This document shows, in pieces, positions 3,525-33,205 of a DNA stretch of 43,813 nt. Location of the stretch: contig JAAYST010000072.1 in the NCBI GenBank assembly GCA_012518265.1, positions 1 to 43,813 on the forward strand, in the 5' to 3' direction. Position numbers and translations under genes: made by a program. This stretch comes from Candidatus Methanofrustulum fimipullorum. GTDB taxonomy: Archaea > Halobacteriota > Methanosarcinia > Methanosarcinales > Methanosarcinaceae. Under the pieces are notes generated by a model. That model made no database searches. It worked only from the letters and a program-made list of their open reading frames with translations, and was not told where the DNA came from. The first letter of the stretch is position 1, and the number at the start of each line of letters is the position of its first letter.

Positions 3525-4508
3525 GTGCAAAAAAGTGGCATTATAAATAAATCCGCAAAAAAAACGGAACCGGAATCAAGTTATGCAGATCTTGAAGCGG
3601 TTATTTTAAATGACCCATATGTAGTTCCGTACAACGGTGTTTACGTTGTTTGTGATGAGAAAAACGAAAAAGCGGAGTTGATTGAACAATCCGATTGTTT
3701 TGCAAGTACCTGTTGGTCGTATTACCATTACAGTAAATCGCCGATAATTACAGGAAGTAGAATTTTAGGTCAATCTGTTAGATATAAAATTGACGTGGGA
3801 CAAAAAGAACTGATACTAAAATCGTCAACGTCCGCAGCCGGGATAAGTTCTCTTTTAGTCGATTCCGAAAGAAATGAAGTTGAAATTACATTCTCGGGCT
3901 TGGGCGGCGGCGGAATCGGAGCTACAAAGTGCAGAGCGCTTGGTAAAGGCGTTTTAAGATATGAAATATCGGAATCGGGCGGAGAAAAAGCGGCTTCCGG
4001 AAAAATTTACGTTCCGAGACGAAACAGAGTTTTAATCGCAATAGACGACACCGATTCTTGCGAAGTCGGCGCTACCTGGACACTTACACACAACATTGCA
4101 CAAAAAGTCTCTTGTAACGATTCCGTTATTTTATCGCAGTCCCTTGTACAGCTGTACCCGGTTCCTGAAAGAACTCAAAATTGCATGTCAACCGTTCTTG
4201 AATTTGGCTGTGTTTCAGATGCTGCAAAAGAAGAGTTGGTATATAAAATAAAGGCTTTTTTGCAAAAATACAGTGTAAGCAAAAACACAGGCATGGTTGT
4301 TTTTACCGGATTTGATGTTACGGAAAAACTGAAAGAATTTTCAATTAAAGCGGGAACTATGAGACTTACAAAAGAAGATGCAATAAACGCCGCAATAGAA
4401 AACAATGTGGAAATAATATTGGACGGAAACGGAATAATCGGAGCTATGGGCGCAATTGCAGGATTTGCAAAACCCGAAGAAACGGTTGTTCCTAAATTTG
4501 AGTTTTAA
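3525..4508 (+). CDS. methanogenesis marker protein 11
   Basis: 327 aa, resembling methanogenesis marker protein 11, a conserved methanogen protein of unsettled function. The core contains AIDDTDSCEVGATW, the motif shared with the TiaS/DUF1743-type fold, and a Gly-rich stretch SGLGGGGIGATKCRALGKG. The start is a GTG at 3525 with GGAG nine bases upstream, in agreement with the family N-terminus. It is convergent with ccsA (59-base gap). Its presence marks the host as a methanogen and makes the adjacent bacterial-looking cytochrome island stand out. The biochemical role is not assigned here. Confidence 0.85.
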   Translation: MQKSGIINKSAKKTEPESSYADLEAVILNDPYVVPYNGVYVVCDEKNEKAELIEQSDCFASTCWSYYHYSKSPIITGSRILGQSVRYKIDVGQKELILKSSTSAAGISSLLVDSERNEVEITFSGLGGGGIGATKCRALGKGVLRYEISESGGEKAASGKIYVPRRNRVLIAIDDTDSCEVGATWTLTHNIAQKVSCNDSVILSQSLVQLYPVPERTQNCMSTVLEFGCVSDAAKEELVYKIKAFLQKYSVSKNTGMVVFTGFDVTEKLKEFSIKAGTMRLTKEDAINAAIENNVEIILDGNGIIGAMGAIAGFAKPEETVVPKFEF

Positions 4509-4566
4509 AATCATTAAAAAAATAAAGTGAAATTAGAATAAAAATGTTTAATAAAAAATATATAAA

Positions 4567-5367
4567 TTAATAACTGTGCAAACCATACATTAAATATGAT
4601 ACACCAAAGAGTGTGAACAGTACAACTAAAAAACCAAAAACAGATAAAATTACAGAGCTTTTTTCATGCTTTTTACCTTTGGATTGCAAGTGCAAATATG
4701 CAGCATATAAAAACCATGTTGCAAGTGCCCAAGTTTCTTTTGGGTCCCAGCTCCACCAAGAACCCCAAACTTCTTCTGCCCAAATTGAACCTGTAATTAA
4801 TACAAGAGTTAGAGCAAAAAAGCCTACTTGTATTAAACGATGGATTGTTTTTGTAAGTATATTTTGGCTCGGACTGTTTTCAGATAAAATTGTATTGGAA
4901 AAACGATTATTTATCAAATACAAAATACCTGCACAAAATGATATAGTAAAAAGGCCGTAAGCTACAATTGCTGTTGCTACGTGAGCTTCAAGCCATTTAC
5001 TTTGAAGCGCAGGCATTAAACCTGTGGGCTCATGAGGAAGCAAACTTACAAATGTAAAAAGTATCAAAGTAGTTGAAGAGATTAATAATAAAATCGACGG
5101 ATTCCGTATCTTTAATCCTAATAAAATGGAAAATAATATGATGCTCCAAACAAAAAGAAGAGAAAATTCATATAATGTAGCAAGAGGAAGTCTGCCCAGT
5201 TTAAAAGAAAACAAAATAAGAAAAGTAGTAAATGCTAAAAAATGAAATAATAAAAAAATGTCCAAAATTAAACTTGCTTCTTTTCGTTTACTTAAAAAAA
5301 GTGAAAATGATGAAACAATCACACAAATGTTTAAAATAAAAATTATATACAAAAATAAATTATCCAT
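4567..5367 (-). CDS. ccsA: System II cytochrome c maturation protein CcsA
   Basis: Integral membrane haem-handling protein, 266 aa, about eight hydrophobic segments. Near the C-terminus it has the Trp-rich WWD signature of haem exporters (WGSWWSWDPKETWA), which presents haem to apocytochromes on the outer face of the membrane. It lies directly downstream of resB (29-base gap), and CcsA and ResB together form the System II synthetase. The natural client here is the neighbouring pair nrfA/nrfH. System II is common in epsilon-proteobacteria, Firmicutes and chloroplasts, whereas Methanosarcina uses Ccm proteins (System I), which supports acquisition from bacteria. Codon use looks plainer (few CGG/CCG) than in the flanking archaeal genes, a visual impression only. 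Confidence 0.9.
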   Translation of the reverse strand: MDNLFLYIIFILNICVIVSSFSLFLSKRKEASLILDIFLLFHFLAFTTFLILFSFKLGRLPLATLYEFSLLFVWSIILFSILLGLKIRNPSILLLISSTTLILFTFVSLLPHEPTGLMPALQSKWLEAHVATAIVAYGLFTISFCAGILYLINNRFSNTILSENSPSQNILTKTIHRLIQVGFFALTLVLITGSIWAEEVWGSWWSWDPKETWALATWFLYAAYLHLQSKGKKHEKSSVILSVFGFLVVLFTLFGVSYLMYGLHSY

Positions 5368-11939: not shown

Positions 11940-12625
11940 CGAAAAGGAAAAGAATAAAATGAAGCGAACGTTAAAATCCTAAAAGAATAAACGAAACAAC
12001 GGCGTATCATTGACATCAAAAAAAACGAGGCACGGAAAAAATCCTAAAATGCACCGCGCCAAAACAAAAAAAACGGCGCAAGGTCGTATCATTGACACAC
12101 GAAAAAACGGAGCGAACGTTAAAATCCTAAAAGAATAAAACGAAACTACGGCGTATCATTGACACCAACAAAAAACGAGTCACGAAAAATCCTAAAATGC
12201 GCCGCACCAAAACAAAAAAAACGGAGCGAGGTCGTATCATTGACACACGAAAAAACGGAGCGAACGTTAAAATCCTAAAAGAATAAAACGAAACTACGGC
12301 GTATCATTGACATTAACAAAAAACGAGGCACGGAAAAAATCCTAAAATGTACTGCGCCAAAACAAAAAAAACGGAGCGAGGTCGTATCATTGAAACTCAA
12401 AAAAACGAAGCGAACGTTAAAACCCTAAAAAAGAATAAAACGAAGCGAACGTTAAAGTCCTAAAAAGAATAAAACGAAGTAACGGCGTATCGTTGACATC
12501 AACAAAAAAACGGGCAACGGAAAAAATCCTAAAATACGCCGCGCCAAAACAAAAAAAACGGCGCAAGGTCGTATCATTGACACTCAAAAAAAGGAAGCGA
12601 ACGTTAAAATCCTAAAAGAATAAAC
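11940..12625. repeat. non-coding tandem array, period about 148-152 bp
   Basis: The word GCGAACGTTAAA starts at 11964, 12112, 12260, 12410, 12445 and 12597, i.e. a 148-152-bp unit repeated about four times with one 35-bp local duplication. Each unit has two halves that both carry AAATCCTAAAA and then CGTATCATTGACA, so GTATCATTGACA (or a close variant) occurs about eight times at alternating spacings of roughly 67 and 82 bp. It is more GC-rich than its flanks. Stops occur in all frames I tried and no ORF spans a unit. It sits in the divergent spacer between the membrane protein gene and tsr3, with a terminator-like hairpin at its left edge. Function unknown; candidates are a repetitive non-coding RNA locus or a protein-binding array. 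Confidence 0.85.
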
Positions 12626-23120: not shown

Positions 23121-23146
23121 GGAAAAAGTTAATTTTAACTTTTTCC
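23121..23146 (-). terminator. carB terminator overlapping its stop codon
   Basis: GGAAAAAGTTAA and TTAACTTTTTCC form a perfect 12-bp stem with two central bases; on the minus strand it is followed by ATATTTTTTTTTAC. The carB stop (23135-23137) is inside the stem, so the last codons GGA AAA AGT TAA double as one arm. Confidence 0.75.
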
Positions 23147-26100
23147 TATATATTCTTGTATTGATTTTATTGTCATTTCTTTTTCAATAGCAGATTCTAT
23201 TGCTATTGCGGCCGCTTTGGCGCCTTGCAATGTTGTAATATAGGGAACGCCGTTGTCGACTGCAGAGCGTCTGATTTTGGATCCGTCGTGGCGTGCTTTG
23301 GGTTTTAATGTCGGTGTATTTATAACGAGATGCACTTCGTTTTTACGTAATCTGTCAAGAATGCTTGGAGTTCCTTCGTGAATTTTATGAACAACGTTCA
23401 TTGAAACACCGTTGTTTTCCATAAATTCGGCCGTCCCGGTAGTTCCGATAAGTTTTAAACCGCATGCAGACATTCTGCGTGCAACGTCAAGCATTTCTTC
23501 TTTATCGGCATCCCTAATCGACATGAATACCGTTCCTTCGACAGGTAATTTATTTTCAGCGGCCATTTCCGCTTTATAATACGCCAAGCCGAAATCGTAA
23601 TCGATTCCCATAACTTCGCCTGTACTTTTCATTTCGGGGCTTAAAAGCGGGTCACCGCATGAGAGCTTATCGAAAGGCAAAAGTACTTCTTTTACCGCAA
23701 TGTGATCAATTTCAGGCTCTTTTTCAAAGTCGTAGCCCATTTCTTTTAAAGATTCGCCTGCCATGACACGTGCGGCAATTTTTGCAAGAGGAATTCCGGT
23801 TGCTTTTGAAACGAAAGGAACTGTTCTGCTTGAGCGCGGATTTGCTTCCAAAATATACACATCGCCGTTTTTTTCCGCCATCTGAATATTAATAATTCCT
23901 TTAACGTTAAGTGCAAGTGCAACGTCTTTAGTGTATTTTCGGACAGTGTTCAAAACGTCATCTGATAAATTTTGAGGAGGAATTACGCAAGCGGAATCGC
24001 CTGAGTGTACTCCCGCCTGTTCCACGTGTTCCATAATTGCGCCGATTAAAACAGTTTTTCCATCAGATACGGCATCAACATCAATTTCACGGGCACCATC
24101 CAAAAAGTCGTCGATTAAAATCGGATGGTCGGGAGATACGCGAACTGCCGCAATCATATATTGTTCCAGTTCGTCACGGTTTGAAACAATTTCCATCGCA
24201 CGGCCGCCCAAAACATATGAAGGACGAACGAGTACGGGATATCCGATTTTTTCCGCAACTTCCACCGCTTCCGCTTCCGATGTAGCGTAACCTGCATCCG
24301 GTTGCAAAATTCCGAGTTTGTTCATTAAAATGTTAAACTTCTCACGATCTTCCGCCAAATCCATATCTTCCGGAGTAGTTCCGAATATTTCGGTCGGAAG
24401 ATTACGGCGAGTGCATTCTTCTTTTAGCGGAATTGCCAAGTTTACGGAAGTTTGACCCCCAAATTGAACAAGGACACCGTCCGGTTTTTCGTGTTCGATT
24501 ACATTCATTACATCTTCAAGCGTAAGCGGTTCGAAAAACAGTTTGTCCGACGTATCAAAATCGGTCGAAACCGTTTCAGGATTGTTATTTATAATATGAG
24601 TTTCAATTCCGATTTCTTTTAAAGCCGTTACGGCATGAACAGTACAATAATCGAACTCAATCCCCTGACCGATACGAATAGGACCTGAGCCTAAAATTAA
24701 CACTTTTTTCTTTTTTTGCGCCGATTCCTTCGATTTAAATCCTAAATCGCATTCAGCGTTCGGCTTTTCGCCGTAAGTTGAATAGAAATAAGGCGTGTAA
24801 GAATATAAGTCACCGGAACATGAATCAACCGACATGTATTTCGGAACGATGCCCGATTTTCTTCTCATTTCGGCAATTTCAATTTCGGAACAATTTGAAA
24901 TACGTGAAATTTCAGCATCTGTAAATCCTAAAATCTTTGCATCTTTTAAAAGAGAATCTGTAAGTTTTTCGTTTTTGAGACGATTTTGCATATCTGTAAT
25001 ATTTTTAAACTTTTCAATAAAAAACGGTTTCATTCTCGTTAAATCGGCGATTTCGTTTACGGAAAATCCTGCTCTTAAAGCATGGAAAATTGTAAATAAA
25101 CGAAGATCGGTCGGAACTTTTAAAAGTCTTACAGTCTCTTCGTTTGAAAGCACAAATGAATCCCATAAAACGTCTATATCTAAAGAACGAACCGATTTTA
25201 AAACGGACTCCTCTACCGATTGACCGATTGCCATAACTTCGCCTGTACTTTTCATAGCTGTTGTCAATGTTCTGTCGGCCGATTTGAATTTATCGAAAGG
25301 CCAGCGCGGAATTTTTGAAACTATATACCTGATATCAGGCGTATACGAAGACGACCCCGGCTCTATCCCTTTAATCATTTCATCAAGAGTTTTTCCAATT
25401 GCTATTTTTGCCGTATAGCGCGCAATTGGAAATCCTGTTGCCTTTGATGCAAGAGCGGAAGAGCGTGAAACTCTCGGATTTACTTCAACGATTCTGTAAT
25501 CTCCGTCTTTGAACGCATATTGAATATTGCATCCGCCTTCAATATTTAAAGCACGAATAATTTTTACAGACGCTTCATGAAGCATTTTTTTATTTTCTTC
25601 CGAAAGCGTTAAAATCGGTGCGACAACCATTGATTCGCCCGTGTGAACCCCCATCGGATCGATATTTTCCATAGTACATATAACGATACAGGTATCGTTT
25701 TTGTCTCTCATTACTTCATATTCGATTTCCGACCAACCAAGAACACTTTCTTCAATTAAAACCTGGTGAATCCGACTTTTCTTCAATCCGTGGCTTGAAA
25801 TTTCCAAAAGTTCTTCGTACGTATGAGCAATTCCGCCGCCTGCGCCCCCTAAAGTATAAGCGGGTCGAACAATGAGAGGAAATCCGAATTCATCTACAGC
25901 TTTATTAAGCTCGTCAACGGAACTTATAGCAATACTTCTTGGTACTTTTTCGCCAATTTTAAGCATAAATTCTTTAAAAAGTTCTCTGTCTTCCGTATTT
26001 TTAATCGCCTCAACGGACGTTCCTATTATTCGAACATTATTTTTTTCAAGAATTCCCATATCGGCAAGTTCCGTCGTTAAATTTAAAGCGGTTTGCCCGC

Positions 26101-26371
26101 CCATTCCTGCAATAATACTGTCGGGCTTCTCCTTTTCAATGATTTTTTCAATCATACGGGCATTAAGCGGTTCTATGTATACGGCGTCAGCCATATCGGA
26201 ATCCGTCATTATTGTTGCCGGGTTTGAATTTACCAAAACTACTTCAATTCCCTCTTCTTTTAAAGACCTGCAAGCCTGACTTCCCGAAAAATCAAACTCG
26301 GCCGCCTGACCTATAGTTATCGGTCCCGAACCGATCAACAAAACTTTTTTAATCGAATTGTCTTTTGCCAT
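23135..26371 (-). CDS. carB: carbamoyl-phosphate synthase large subunit CarB
   Basis: 1078 aa, full length. Makes carbamoyl phosphate from bicarbonate, ammonia (from the glutaminase CarA) and two ATP, for pyrimidines and arginine. Two homologous ATP-grasp halves: the first starts KKVLLIGSGPITIGQAAEFDFSGSQA, the second at about residue 555 KKVLILGSGPIRIGQGIEFDY. Each carries the RPAYTLGGAGGG or RPSYVLGGRAM loop. A C-terminal MGS-like allosteric domain begins near residue 945. carA, normally adjacent, is not in the window; upstream is the gene-free 26372-27974 region. The start ATG at 26371 has a GCGGGG-type purine stretch upstream. Confidence 0.97.
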   Translation of the reverse strand: MAKDNSIKKVLLIGSGPITIGQAAEFDFSGSQACRSLKEEGIEVVLVNSNPATIMTDSDMADAVYIEPLNARMIEKIIEKEKPDSIIAGMGGQTALNLTTELADMGILEKNNVRIIGTSVEAIKNTEDRELFKEFMLKIGEKVPRSIAISSVDELNKAVDEFGFPLIVRPAYTLGGAGGGIAHTYEELLEISSHGLKKSRIHQVLIEESVLGWSEIEYEVMRDKNDTCIVICTMENIDPMGVHTGESMVVAPILTLSEENKKMLHEASVKIIRALNIEGGCNIQYAFKDGDYRIVEVNPRVSRSSALASKATGFPIARYTAKIAIGKTLDEMIKGIEPGSSSYTPDIRYIVSKIPRWPFDKFKSADRTLTTAMKSTGEVMAIGQSVEESVLKSVRSLDIDVLWDSFVLSNEETVRLLKVPTDLRLFTIFHALRAGFSVNEIADLTRMKPFFIEKFKNITDMQNRLKNEKLTDSLLKDAKILGFTDAEISRISNCSEIEIAEMRRKSGIVPKYMSVDSCSGDLYSYTPYFYSTYGEKPNAECDLGFKSKESAQKKKKVLILGSGPIRIGQGIEFDYCTVHAVTALKEIGIETHIINNNPETVSTDFDTSDKLFFEPLTLEDVMNVIEHEKPDGVLVQFGGQTSVNLAIPLKEECTRRNLPTEIFGTTPEDMDLAEDREKFNILMNKLGILQPDAGYATSEAEAVEVAEKIGYPVLVRPSYVLGGRAMEIVSNRDELEQYMIAAVRVSPDHPILIDDFLDGAREIDVDAVSDGKTVLIGAIMEHVEQAGVHSGDSACVIPPQNLSDDVLNTVRKYTKDVALALNVKGIINIQMAEKNGDVYILEANPRSSRTVPFVSKATGIPLAKIAARVMAGESLKEMGYDFEKEPEIDHIAVKEVLLPFDKLSCGDPLLSPEMKSTGEVMGIDYDFGLAYYKAEMAAENKLPVEGTVFMSIRDADKEEMLDVARRMSACGLKLIGTTGTAEFMENNGVSMNVVHKIHEGTPSILDRLRKNEVHLVINTPTLKPKARHDGSKIRRSAVDNGVPYITTLQGAKAAAIAIESAIEKEMTIKSIQEYIGKS

Positions 26372-26813
26372 ATTAAATAATACCCCGCTTTAAATAAAAT
26401 AAAATCTCCAATTATATGATTATATGATAATTACGATAAAGTATTTAAAATAATAAATTGTTCGGGGATTAATGTATAACAAATAATAAAAAGTTATTGC
26501 AAAAAAGACTATTGATAATATTGATAAAAAAGAAAATCATATTGATAAAAAAAAAAAATCGTATTGATAATAAAGAAAATCAAAATGAAAAAAAAACAAG
26601 TAGAATAAAAATAAAGAAAAAAACATGTAGAAAAAAGATAAAATAAAAAATAAAAAAGGAAACAGGAGAACAAATGAAAACTATAATAAATATTAGGATT
26701 ATAGCGAAAAATATAAGTACTAATAATGTATAATTGTAATAACTTTATAAGCGATAAATTACCAGATACTTAAAGTCTTTTTTAAAAAATAAAAAATATG
26801 AATGAAAAATAAG

Positions 26814-26849
26814 GGAAAAGGACATTTCGCCACAAAAAGTCCTTTTTCC
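26814..26849. other. imperfect hairpin
   Basis: GGAAAAGGAC pairs with GTCCTTTTTCC (one-base bulge) over a 15-base loop. On the minus strand a U-rich stretch follows, so it could be a terminator for antisense transcription or a structured RNA element. A related AAAAAGGAAATATGTCCTAC occurs at about 27256. Confidence 0.4.
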
Positions 26850-27040
26850 AATTCACACATTTTCCAATTCAATTTTTTCCGAGGTCTACAAACGAATCTT
26901 GTAAAAGATACATTTTGAGACAATCTATAAAATGCTATACTAGAATATATACTTATCGTTTGAAATATAGCAAATTATAGTAAAAAACTATCAAAATATA
27001 GCAGAATTTTCAACGAATTTAAAAAAAAAATAGCTTTTTT

Positions 27041-27185
27041 TAGCAAAAAAATAGATCTTGCTACAACTAAATACCGCGCAACACTAAAAAAGCGAATAAA
27101 AACAAAATAAAAAAAGAAGATCGGACCAAAAACAATAGCAGTAAAAGCATATATTAAAAAATAGCAAAAAGATAGATTTTGCTAT
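27041..27185. repeat. two TAGCA...TGCTA inverted elements
   Basis: TAGCAAAAAAATAGATCTTG then CTA (27041-27063) and ATAGCAAAA, seven bases, TTTTGCTAT (27161-27185) are two versions of one inverted-repeat element with a shared ATAGAT centre, about 120 bp apart. Single TAGCA or TGCTA words recur elsewhere in 26930-27910. Confidence 0.55.
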
Positions 27186-27330
27186 AAAATAATATTTAAA
27201 GAAATATTATAAGAAATATGTAATATTTCATCTTCAAATATGTGAGAATAAATTGAAAAAGGAAATATGTCCTACAAAAAGAAACTGTTTTACACAATTG
27301 CCGCAAAATAGCAGGCAACAAACTGCTAAC

Positions 27331-27410
27331 ATATAAGAATTTATAATAAGTTATAAGAATCTATGAAAAGCTATAAAAAAACTGTAAAAATCTATAGAAA
27401 TCTATAAAAA
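27331..27410. repeat. helically phased TATA-word array 1
   Basis: Eight successive decamers each hold (T/C)TATAA-like words followed by A-rich bases; from 27361 the C(T)ATA/CTATG/CTGTA words start at 27361, 27371, 27382, 27392 and 27402, i.e. every 10-11 bp. Confidence 0.65.
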
Positions 27411-27540
27411 AAAGCTGTACAAATAACATAAAAAAAGAGTTTAAAAATAAGAAATTACGTACATTTATCTGCTATAATCTGCTATCAACTCAGATATATT
27501 AGAAAGTAATTTATCCAAAAAATAGATACCAGTAGACAGT

Positions 27541-27620
27541 ATAGCACAATATAGAAAATGCTATTTGAAAATTTTTAAAAAAACAACATATAGAATGATA
27601 TAGAAAGGTATAGAAAACAT
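27541..27620. repeat. helically phased TATAG array 2
   Basis: TAG of the ATAGAAA/TATAG word starts at 27542, 27552, 27591, 27601 and 27611; steps are 10, 39, 10 and 10 bp, all near whole helical turns. Confidence 0.6.
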
Positions 27621-27794
27621 ATAAAAATAATATATCCGGAACTGAAATATTGAATATCTAGAAATAAAATATTGAATAAAAATATAGATATTATAGATGT
27701 GAAAAAAAAATAAAAGTATAAATACATGATTACACCTTATAAAAATACAGAACAGTAAGGAATCTTAGGGATCCGGAATATAAGACGAGATATT

Positions 27795-27905
27795 AATCTA
27801 TAGAAACATAGAAAATTTATAGAAAAAATATAGGAAATTATAGAAAAATAATAGAATGTGATAGAAAATTGATAGACAATTGATAGAATATCTATAGAAT
27901 ATGCT
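27795..27905. repeat. helically phased ATAGAAA array 3, upstream of the RHH gene
   Basis: Ten copies of an (A/T)TAG(A)AAA-like word. The TAG positions are 27801, 27809, 27820, 27831, 27841, 27852, 27862, 27873, 27884 and 27895, so nine steps of 8, 11, 11, 10, 11, 10, 11, 11 and 11 bp, close to the 10.5-bp turn of DNA. It ends 70 bp before the ATG of the RHH/coiled-coil protein. Arrays of this design are bound cooperatively by RHH proteins such as ParR, or make curved DNA. Confidence 0.75.
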
Positions 27906-27974
27906 ATTGCAATCTTAAAAACATTAAAAGAGGCTTATTAAAAACATAAAAGGCTTAAAGCCGAGTGAGAAAGT

Positions 27975-28397
27975 ATGGCAAGCAATATAGAAAACGCAGA
28001 AACTGATGATAAAAGGACTGAAACAAAGCAGCTTAATGTCAGAATATCGCTTGAACTTCATGAAAAGCTTGATGCTGTAAATGAACCTAAAGGAATGGTT
28101 GTAGCAAGAGCTCTTGAAGAATATTTCGCCAAGGCGGAAAAGGAAAAAGAAAGTGAAGCAACCGGATTAAGTCAGGAATATGTAAATGCTCTTTTAAAAC
28201 AGCTGGAAACAAAAGATAAACAAATCCAAGCACTCACCAACCAACTCAATACAAAAGATGAACAAATCACAGAAAGAGACAATACTACAAAAATGCATAT
28301 TGCTCAAGTTCAAACGCTGATTAATCAACTTGAGAAAAAACAGCTTGAGTTGGAAAATGAAAAAACTGAAAAGAAAAAATGGTATCAGTTTTGGTAA
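27975..28397 (+). CDS. ribbon-helix-helix protein with long coiled coil and aromatic C-terminal tail
   Basis: 140 aa. After a polar start, residues about 15-50 (TKQLNVRISLELHEKLDAVNEPKGMVVARALEEYF) fit a CopG/Arc-type ribbon-helix-helix: a short strand, then two helices. Residues about 65-130 are a heptad-rich coiled coil with internal repeats (LETKDKQIQALTNQL, LNTKDEQITERD). The end KKKWYQFW is basic/aromatic, like the tails of plasmid and chromosome-segregation coiled-coil proteins, and may touch the membrane. Likely a dimeric DNA binder; the 10-11-bp phased repeats upstream are its natural candidate site, giving autoregulation or partition. The RBS is GTGAG. No ParM/ParA-like ATPase is adjacent. 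Confidence 0.8.
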   Translation: MASNIENAETDDKRTETKQLNVRISLELHEKLDAVNEPKGMVVARALEEYFAKAEKEKESEATGLSQEYVNALLKQLETKDKQIQALTNQLNTKDEQITERDNTTKMHIAQVQTLINQLEKKQLELENEKTEKKKWYQFW

Positions 28398-28550: not shown

Positions 28551-29857
28551 ATGGAAATAGAGTTAAAAAATATTGGTTTAATAGATCACTGTAAAGTTAA
28601 AATCGACGGAATCACTATTATATCCGGGGAAAACGCAACCGGAAAAAGCACTGTGGGAAAAGCTTTGTATGGTGTGTTTAACGGGTTGAATGACATTTTT
28701 AACCAAGTTGATGAAATAAGGCATGAGAATATCTATGGAATTTTTTTAAGATATAGCAGATCTGCTGAAATGAAGCGGTCAATCGATTACAGAAAAAAAT
28801 ATGATGAATTGATATGTTATATAATAAAAAACAGAAATCAGTTCATCAGTAATAAAAAATCTTTAAACTATTACATAATGAAAAATAAAAACGTAATTAT
28901 CGATGAAGAAAATCAAATTCATGATACACTGTTGGAACGTTCGTCTTATTATTCTTCAAAAAATATAGATGATGAAATCGAATCGATTACGGAAGAAATA
29001 TTTGAATCTTTGAAAATTTCTACGGAACTTATAATAAAAAGAATTGTTCAAAGAAGTTTGGATTCGGAATTTAGAGGGGATATAAAAAACAAATATAAAA
29101 CAGCTGAAGAAACATCTGTTATAAATTTAACAATAAAAGATGAAATTGTAAAGGTCGAAATTTTAAAAGACGAGGTTTCAAAAGTAAAAAATGTAATGTC
29201 TATGACTAAAGAGATAGTCTACATAGACGACCCTTATGTAATAGATGACTTAAATAAGGTGATGAGATCAGGTTTTTTTTGAATTTTGAAGGAAAAAATC
29301 ACAGAGATACATTAAAAGAAAAGTTATTAAGAGACAGCAAAGACTTGTTGGAAACTATAAAAACCGATGAAAAATTAAAAGATATCTACACCAAATTGGA
29401 ATATATAAAACTCGGAGAGTTAAAATACCGAAACAATATCGCCAGATATGAAGCTGACGATTTGTCTATAAATGCCGAAAATATTGCTGCGGGATTAAAA
29501 ACATTTGTTATAATAAAAACATTGCTTGAAAACGGAAGTCTTGAAAACGACGGCACTATGATTTTAGACGAACCCGAAATACACCTGCACCCGAAATGGC
29601 AATTGCTCTTGGCGGAGCTAATAGTTTTAATTCAAAAAGTATTTAATATGCACATTCTTCTCAATACCCACAGCCCCTATTTTCTTCACGCAATAGAAGT
29701 TTATTCGAAACACCACGGAATATCAAAAAAATGTAGATATTATTTGACGGAATTGGACGAAGAAGAAAAAACGGCACATATAAAAGAGGTCACGGGAAAC
29801 ACGGAAGAGATATATAAATTGCTTGCTGAACCGTTCGATACTTTGGAGTTGATATAA
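28551..29857 (+). pseudogene. AAA (AAA_15/AAA_21, OLD-like) ATPase, split by a frameshift in a T8 run
   Basis: Two frames together make one ATPase of about 435 aa. Frame 1 (28551-29282, 243 aa) starts with the SMC/ABC-like MEIELKNIGLIDHCKVKIDG and Walker A GENATGKST (26-34), then a helical insert. It stops in GGTTTTTTTTGA. Frame 2 (from 29279, 192 aa) continues with a signature-like INAENIAAGLKTF, Walker B MILDEPEIHLHP and the H-loop LNTHSP. One more T (T9) would fuse the frames as SGFFLNFEGK. ATPases of this type act in defence modules and partner with a nuclease; the next gene fits. Either decay, -1 slippage on T8, or a sequencing error. Confidence 0.8.
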
Positions 29858-29859
29858 AC

Positions 29860-30383
29860 GTGTTTGAAAATTTCAAATCAACTTTAAAGAAAACTTCGTT
29901 TGACAAAGATAACAATTTCCACTGGTTGAAAACAATATACCTTGTATAGACTTTGACAAGTATATGAAATATTATTGCAAAAACGAAGTCACAGAGGCAA
30001 AATCAATATTAAGATCTGTTGATGCGATTTTAAAAAACGGAAATGATGTTTATTTTATAGAGTTTAAAAATAAAACAGTAGACAACAAGACGGTATACGA
30101 ATTAAAAGAAAAATGTTATGATTCGATTTTTGTATATTTCGACAAGAGTAAACAGAGCATAGAAGAATCAAGACAGAGTTTTCACTTCATACTGATAACT
30201 AATTACAGTAAAAATAAAAATATGTTTAACAGCTTGGATAAAATTAAACAAAATGTAAGAAATAATGCAAACACGGAATTGAAAAAAATTATAGATAAAT
30301 TTGAATGCTTTTATTTAAAGTCTGTAAAAGTATGGGACCCCGGGACGTTTAATCAGTTTTTAGCTGCTAAAAAATCGCTTTAA
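29860..30383 (+). pseudogene. PD-(D/E)XK nuclease-like partner of the ATPase, frameshifted
   Basis: A GTG at 29860, two bases after the ATPase stop, begins VFENFKSTLKKTSFDKDNNFHW and runs into TAG (29947). The other frame then supplies VENNIPCIDFDKYMKYYCKNE and the rest (ATG 29964 gives 139 aa). One extra G in TGG at 29923-29925 would make a single protein of about 174 aa. The core KSILRSVDAILKNGNDVYFIEFKNK reads as D-(x)n-E-x-K, the metal-binding signature of PD-(D/E)XK nucleases, on a strand-strand layout. Family not identified. Overlapping placement with the ATPase implies a two-gene module. Confidence 0.6.
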
Positions 30384-30538
30384 AAAACGTTTAAAAAAAA
30401 AACGTTAAAAAAAACGTTTAAAAAAAAACGTTTAAAAAAAACGTTTAAAAAAAACGTTTAAAAAAAACGTTTAAAAAAACGTTTAAAAAAAACGTTAAAA
30501 AAAACGTTTAAAAATAACGTTAAAAAATAACGTTAAAA
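30384..30538. repeat. AAACGTTT array
   Basis: Twelve AACGTT words separated by A-runs, about 10-15 bp apart. The palindromic AACGTT core makes each unit a potential symmetric site. It sits in the convergent spacer between the nuclease-like gene and gatE, abutting the gatE terminator. Confidence 0.85.
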
Positions 30539-30577
30539 AATATTAAACAGTTGAAGAATTCAACTGTTTAATATTTT
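30539..30577 (-). terminator. gatE terminator overlapping its stop codon
   Basis: AATATTAAACAGTTGAA and TTCAACTGTTTAATATT form a perfect 17-bp stem with a GAA loop. The gatE stop (30560-30562) is in the stem. On the minus strand TTTTTTAACG follows. It could serve both convergent transcripts. Confidence 0.75.
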
Positions 30578-33099: not shown

Positions 33100-33121
33100 A
33101 TTAAAAATTCAAATATAATTA

Positions 33122-33205
33122 ATTACGAATTATTAATTACGAATTATTAATTACGAATTATTAATTACGAATTATTAATTACGAATTATTAATTACGAAT
33201 TACAA
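33122..33205. repeat. 14-bp tandem repeat, six copies
   Basis: ATTACGAATTATTA begins at 33122, 33136, 33150, 33164, 33178 and 33192, an exact array between the zinc-ribbon gene and aEF-1beta. Confidence 0.9.

Follow-up and report, generated by a model that had tools for sequence, protein, structure and literature searches.

What does a series of helically phased ATAG and CTAT words do in the noncoding DNA ahead of a small gene for an RHH-like protein in a methanogen? The window, by which we mean the whole 43,813-nucleotide stretch analyzed here, is contig C22 of a 1.51-Mb, 81%-complete archaeal genome, and its host is a Methanosarcinaceae methanogen close to the insect-gut genus Methanimicrococcus. 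About 1.6 kb separate carB from the RHH-like gene; convincing genes are absent from this interval, and its right half is rich in ATAG and CTAT (Table 1). On the far side of the RHH-like gene, a defense-like ATPase pair is inserted before gatE and is missing there in Methanimicrococcus. The AAA ATPase is split into two ORFs near a T-run (about 29272-29282), and together with the 139-aa ORF it has weak similarity to the candidate defense pair HEC-02A/HEC-02B (PADLOC). The window also carries tandem arrays of other kinds, with 148-bp units at 11956-12624, about 12 copies of the 13-bp unit AAAAAACGTTTAA at 30382-30540, and six copies of a 14-bp unit at 33118-33202.

Table 1. Features of the carB-gatE interval, in positions of the window
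Feature	Position	Strand	Description
carB	23135-26371	minus	left border of the noncoding DNA
Candidate structured ncRNA	26813-26935	minus	points away from the RHH gene; single copy
Small CTAT/ATAG cluster	26925-27001		words at 26925, 26935, 26967, 26977, 26988, 26998
Small cluster	27161-27185		ATAG at 27161, 27172; CTAT at 27182
Run 1	27331-27406		eight [C/T]TATA-like words; spacing 10, 10, 10, 10, 11, 10, 10
Run 2	27541-27613		ATAG/CTAT words at 27541, 27551, 27561; 27590, 27600, 27610
Run 3, main array	27798-27907		nine ATAG (27808-27897) with flanking CTATAG/CTAT
RHH-like gene, 140-aa protein	27975-28397	plus	RHH-like N-terminus, coiled coil, aromatic tail
RHH region (probable)	28026-28127	plus	residues 18-51: strand KQLNVRI, helix 26-34, loop, start of second helix
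Coiled-coil region	28128-28364	plus	residues 52-130; predicted single continuous helix 39-139
C-terminal tail KKKWYQFW	28371-28394	plus	residues 133-140; invariant in 7 orthologs
AAA ATPase (two overlapping ORFs) and 139-aa ORF	28551-29857, 29964-30383	plus	between the RHH gene and gatE

Three runs of phased words had been described in this gene-free DNA by the initial annotation, and all three are present, with coordinates right to a few bases. The region of run 1 is also returned by Tandem Repeats Finder as period-10 and period-20 tandem rows. In run 3, ATAG starts at 27808, 27819, 27830, 27840, 27851, 27861, 27872, 27883, and 27894, with one more ATAG at 27800 before these and a CTAT at 27904 after them, and since the nine starts follow one another at 11, 11, 10, 11, 10, 11, 11, and 11 bp, a 10.5-bp helical period fits better than a fixed tandem unit. 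The distance of this best array from the gene, given as 70 bp, is in fact slightly larger: 77 bp separate the end of the last ATAG from the ATG of the RHH gene. An excess of roughly 10.5-bp periodicity, also anticipated in that annotation, is borne out by comparison with 500 dinucleotide shuffles of 27300-27974. There, ATAG occurs 20 times (shuffle mean 8.8, maximum 16), 11 pairs of ATAG lie 10 or 11 bp apart (mean 0.25, maximum 3), and the longest phased chain holds nine words (maximum 3), with none of the 500 shuffles matching the count, the pair number, or the chain length. The maximal power at periods of 9.5-11.5 has a permutation P of 0.0004. Elsewhere in the 1.51-Mb genome, just two places hold three phased ATAG words, and no chain comparable to that of run 3 was found.

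Judged from sequence and predicted structure, the neighboring protein begins with a predicted DNA-binding domain, continues as a coiled coil, and ends in a short putative anchor, which agrees with its earlier description as an RHH protein with a long coiled coil and an aromatic tail. Its N-terminus is disordered, and the coiled coil spans about 100 residues. A HicB profile matches the window protein at E=0.011, below Pfam's cut-off, and the profile of its family weakly matches the CopG-family structure 9kkd (E=0.043). In the predicted monomer (pLDDT 84, pTM 0.42), the RHH helices come in the expected order and the strand segment is unassigned; a fold search with this monomer returned no significant match, with RHH Reg576 and RHH-like TCP domains at the top of its results. 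As these indications are weak but consistent with one another, the N-terminal domain is probably an RHH domain. We also compared the family with DUF536, for which the best score was 16.2 bits (L146) against Pfam's cut-off of 20.7; a Methanimicrococcus ortholog scored 14.6 and the window protein 10.9, with alignment only at the start of the model.

Relatives and plasmids had been named as places where the gene and its array might recur, and the gene does recur in both, as well as in viruses. Orthologs were found by tblastn in all six Methanimicrococcus genomes, in the same place and 62-65% identical, and the RHH gene and the noncoding element are common to all six; the order carB, noncoding DNA, RHH gene, gatE holds in the two loci that were fully inspected (L029 and L030). 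Upstream of the six genes we count 93 ATAG or CTAT words against 37 expected, 15 word pairs at 10 or 11 bp against 0.7 expected, and 14 pairs at 20-22 bp against 1.1 expected, and not one shuffle equals any of these totals. The DNA between the words is largely unalignable to the window. A GATAG word is conserved just 5' of the Methanimicrococcus genes, and transcription may start near it. Purifying selection on the protein is strong and tightest in its C-terminal half: among the six Methanimicrococcus genomes, where synonymous sites are close to saturation, dN/dS has a median of 0.087 over the whole gene, against 0.08 in the RHH segment and 0.03 in the C-terminal half. No ortholog was detected in G027, a 65%-complete genome placed in the window's genus, whose gatE has different neighboring genes.

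Beyond these orthologs, a profile run over 238 genomes of the class recovers relatives in 60, chiefly in Methanosarcina, often with several copies per genome, many of them broken, and in the f5/g25 group, which we take to be Methanoperedens-like. No named curated family of Pfam, NCBIfam, or PHROGs covers these Methanosarcinales proteins. One member lies on plasmid NC_014254.1 of Methanohalobium evestigatum. On IMG/VR viral contigs, a member adjoins a terminase gene (L113, with the same gene pair visible in L115) or lies next to an integrase (L114). Further members adjoin Cdc6/Orc1 (L120 and L146) or have a primase as neighbor, of the D5 type in L048 and CHC2 in L137. Neither plasmids, searched by BLAST with the window protein and two homologs, nor phages, searched with the window protein, returned a match, so that the plasmid and viral members were found only through the profile or with queries from their own sequences; the C-terminal module by itself likewise matched nothing among phages and plasmids. 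A tail of the type W[WY]x[FILV]W closes about 45 of 55 family proteins, ending within the last three residues, and the L147 member (4163-4600) has in its place a hydrophobic stretch of 19 residues (Kyte-Doolittle 1.67) that resembles a membrane helix.

Several observations lie to the side of this distribution. CYTH/CHAD (polyphosphate-related) genes adjoin the paralogs L117, L130, L134, and L149 in Methanosarcina and Methanimicrococcus, an assignment confirmed with Pfam for L117 and judged from sequence similarity for the other three; this makes a second neighborhood that is conserved around the gene. A family member of another subtype lies directly beside a gatE-like gene in an f5/g25 genome (L121, 1-1300), and on the minus strand of L120 a truncated copy of the gene, which has a GGAAG array as well, lies before the gene at 1308-1664 and its GGAAG array. 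The viral-contig protein L182 (3728-4336) has an apparent MerR-type HTH and a coiled coil and ends in KKKWWQFW, which suggests that the tail module is also paired with other DNA-binding domains. Two sets of matches were set aside, the viral contigs L171-L180 with a KKPWWKFW motif as unrelated large phage proteins and the Prevotella matches L035-L037 as unrelated coiled-coil lipoproteins.

Phased words also precede other members of the family, and the word changes with the protein. Using exact 5-mers in the 450 bp upstream, with other upstreams from the same loci as controls and with array words selected from the same loci on which they are tested, phasing at p<=0.01 was found for 14 of 54 family upstreams and 2 of 80 controls (Fisher P = 5e-5); the ratio of observed to expected was 3.2 for the family vs 1.4 for the controls, with no excess at control lags. 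About two-thirds of family upstreams gave no significant phasing in this exact-5-mer test, and several Methanoperedens-like members have just a short operator-like word group. The ATAG/CTAT word goes with the RHH strand QLNVRI, GGAAG with KINVW (three species), TCCCA with KKIQCW, AGATC with KKVQCW (six GATC at 10, 10, 10, 10, and 11 bp), TGTAT with KRINVS and its relatives, and GAACC with TFSIRL in three species, where as many as eight GAAC words stop 7 bp short of the start codon. Within subgroups, shared ancestry accounts for part of this agreement and inflates it. GTGTA is a further array word of the family, and the NC_014254.1 member has a TAAC array of four words at exactly 10 bp. In L048, L124, L125, and L128, no more than 10 bp separate the arrays from the start codon. 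For the QLNVRI group, ATAG/CTAT words in the last 150 bp differ modestly from the comparison (2.9 vs 1.7, P=0.008), with exceptions: two members with a nearly identical QLNVRL strand have none there. That subgroups use different words, with members of similar RHH strands sharing one, is the strongest argument for regarding an array as bound by the protein encoded beside it, and the orthologs, which retain the word while the intervening DNA diverges, point the same way. On this sequence evidence we consider it highly probable that the array is bound by the adjacent RHH-like protein.

The noncoding DNA of the window holds a second candidate element, the ncRNA of Table 1, which is kept at the same locus in all six Methanimicrococcus genomes, with two hairpins and a few compensatory changes, and has a TATA-like box just upstream (about 26945-26958). 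Its model scores E = 2e-16 in the window, whose own sequence is part of the model; among 112 family genomes it was found nowhere beyond the window and the Methanimicrococcus locus, and Rfam gave no family match, permissive thresholds returning chance-level matches only. Covariation of a long outer helix was discounted because this helix overlaps the TATA-like box. The element could be a small RNA in its own right or else a long leader of carB, and the distance to carB, about 440 bp in the window and about 840 bp in L029, favors an independent RNA because it varies. The word cluster at 26925-27001 surrounds the putative promoter of this minus-strand RNA. With array words flanking it in this way, it is possible to speculate that the RHH-like protein controls the candidate RNA.

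Taken together, the idea of a centromere, anchor, or autoregulator fits the locus best, and the locus is best regarded as functional rather than as a relic. Our preferred reading, to which we give a probability of about 0.52, is an autoregulated one-protein DNA-tethering module, similar to RocS, pSK1 Par, or StbA, that was domesticated on the chromosome. RHH dimers bound side by side to the ATAG/CTAT words, all on one helix face, would assemble cooperatively into a nucleoprotein patch, as the 10.5-bp phase and the analogy with ParR suggest (PMC5016525). The same patch would repress the RHH gene, given that arrays lie at or near likely promoters, and autoregulation by the RHH-like protein is, from the sequence, likely. 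Coiled coils would multimerize and project from the patch with many clustered basic-aromatic tails, and these tails would fix the DNA to a surface. The likeliest surface is the membrane, which is favored by the basic-aromatic tail itself, by the membrane-like end of L147, and by the C-terminal segment of RocS (PMC11500499). In viruses and plasmids of the Methanosarcinales, such a single-protein module, working without an NTPase, would serve maintenance or positioning and would keep copies in place; in Methanimicrococcus and the window species, it would have become fixed between carB and gatE and would tether one chromosomal site. Judging from architecture, plasmid and virus context, and analogy, we hold the chances of tethering to be about even and those of a role in segregation to be somewhat lower. 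More tentative still is the wider proposal of an undescribed archaeal one-protein centromere or anchor family, carried by viruses and plasmids of the Methanosarcinales, in which RHH specificity and array co-evolve and whose chromosomal tether, in Methanimicrococcus and its relatives, includes a dedicated small RNA.

Another explanation, in our view less likely, is that the protein is purely an autoregulator or local regulator of its own gene and perhaps of the divergent small RNA, with a coiled coil that serves oligomerization only. The arrays at or near likely promoters, including the four that come within 10 bp of a start codon, would suit such a protein, as would the conserved GATAG at a possible transcription start and the frequent role of RHH proteins as repressors, an archaeal RHH regulator being CdrS, which acts on cell division (PMC8406309). 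At least three runs across several hundred bp are, however, more than a simple operator requires, selection peaks in the C-terminal half and tail rather than in the DNA-binding domain, and the plasmid and virus setting with replication genes recurs.

It is improbable that the protein supplies DNA binding to a two-component partition system, with a ParA- or ParM-like NTPase encoded elsewhere in the genome. Type Ib and type II systems have RHH centromere-binding proteins that act in this way, with the C-terminal tails of ParR contacting ParM (PMC5016525), and the window's own genome has two weak ParA-superfamily matches. But the earlier remark that no ParM or ParA gene is adjacent extends from the window to all family loci inspected, the actin-like model ALP_N was absent in eight genomes (a model also blank above its cut-off in control genomes), and genome G011, 93% complete, has the gene and no AAA_31 match at E<=1e-5.

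Intrinsic curvature or low-complexity drift, with phased A-tracts in AT-rich noncoding DNA and the gene as an unrelated neighbor, is very improbable. The window array does contain A-tracts, with weak phasing (4 pairs vs 0.9, p=0.02), and other tandem repeats are numerous in the genome, but nearly all other arrays of the family lack A-tract phasing while having word phasing, words such as GATC, TCCCA, GAACC, and GGAAG are no A-tracts, and the ATAG chain is unique within a genome of equal composition; A-tract curvature, unsupported across the family, is thus largely refuted. Least credible is a centromere left behind by an integrated plasmid or provirus, with no present function; a relic plasmid centromere had also been offered by the initial annotation. 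The many broken Methanosarcina members would agree with it, but it is contradicted by the purifying selection on a gene that is intact at one locus in seven genomes, with a dN/dS of about 0.09 overall and 0.03 in the C-terminal half.

How plasmids, viruses, and chromosomes of methanogens are inherited and positioned is poorly known, and to our knowledge motor-less single-protein segregation has been described in only a few bacterial cases, with a disputed mechanism. If a one-protein tethering module does operate here, the same design would exist in archaea with another DNA-binding domain, and the many natural pairs of protein and array would lend themselves to specificity swaps, reporters, and tethering tests in tractable Methanosarcina.

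Among known systems, ParR/parC of R1, pB171, and pSK41 combines an RHH protein with upstream iterons of about one helical turn, self-repression, and clustered C-terminal tails (PMC5016525). The archaeal locus shares the phased repeats 5' of an RHH protein gene, insofar as its weak RHH assignment holds, but has no ParM gene, and a long coiled coil with a WWxFW-type tail replaces the ParM-binding domain. An actin-like ParM partner, as in type II partition, is absent from the window and from the inspected loci of relatives, and no ParA-type ATPase, as in the type I systems ParABS and SegAB, lies beside the inspected loci. SegB is the archaeal DNA-binding part of the minimal SegAB segregation machine of Sulfolobales (PMC12284271); it works with its partner SegA, of which the array locus has no counterpart. 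With no ParM or ParA partner and with DUF536 scores below Pfam's cut-off, we do not class the protein as a ParM/ParA-type or a DUF536 member.

Closer parallels come from systems of one protein. StbA of R388 has two sets of five 9-bp repeats with 2-bp spacers (11 bp apart) around its own promoter and stabilizes the plasmid with the ATPase StbB dispensable for that function (PMC3098194). Both systems thus pair a DNA-binding protein with repeats around the promoter of its own operon, but StbA belongs to a conjugative plasmid, we found no family relation between the two, and a WWxFW tail is not among the features described for StbA (PMC3098194). The one-protein plasmid partition protein pSK1 Par has an HTH, a coiled coil/DUF536, and a RocS-like C-terminus, with repeat binding on the plasmid proposed (PMC11500499); it differs from the archaeal family in its DNA-binding fold and in belonging to a staphylococcal plasmid rather than to an archaeal virus, plasmid, and chromosome. 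RocS of Streptococcus pneumoniae, which acts in motor-less chromosome segregation, joins a DNA-binding domain and a coiled coil to a C-terminal segment that binds the membrane only once multimerized (PMC11500499). Like RocS, the archaeal protein is predicted to unite DNA binding, a coiled coil, and a short segment at the C-terminus in one polypeptide, but it has an RHH-like domain in place of a winged HTH, an aromatic WWxFW-type tail in place of a MinD-like amphipathic helix, and a putative phased binding array at its locus. The presence of family members on plasmid NC_014254.1, on viral contigs L113-L115, and near Cdc6/Orc1 in L120 and L146 adds a likeness to single-protein plasmid partition.
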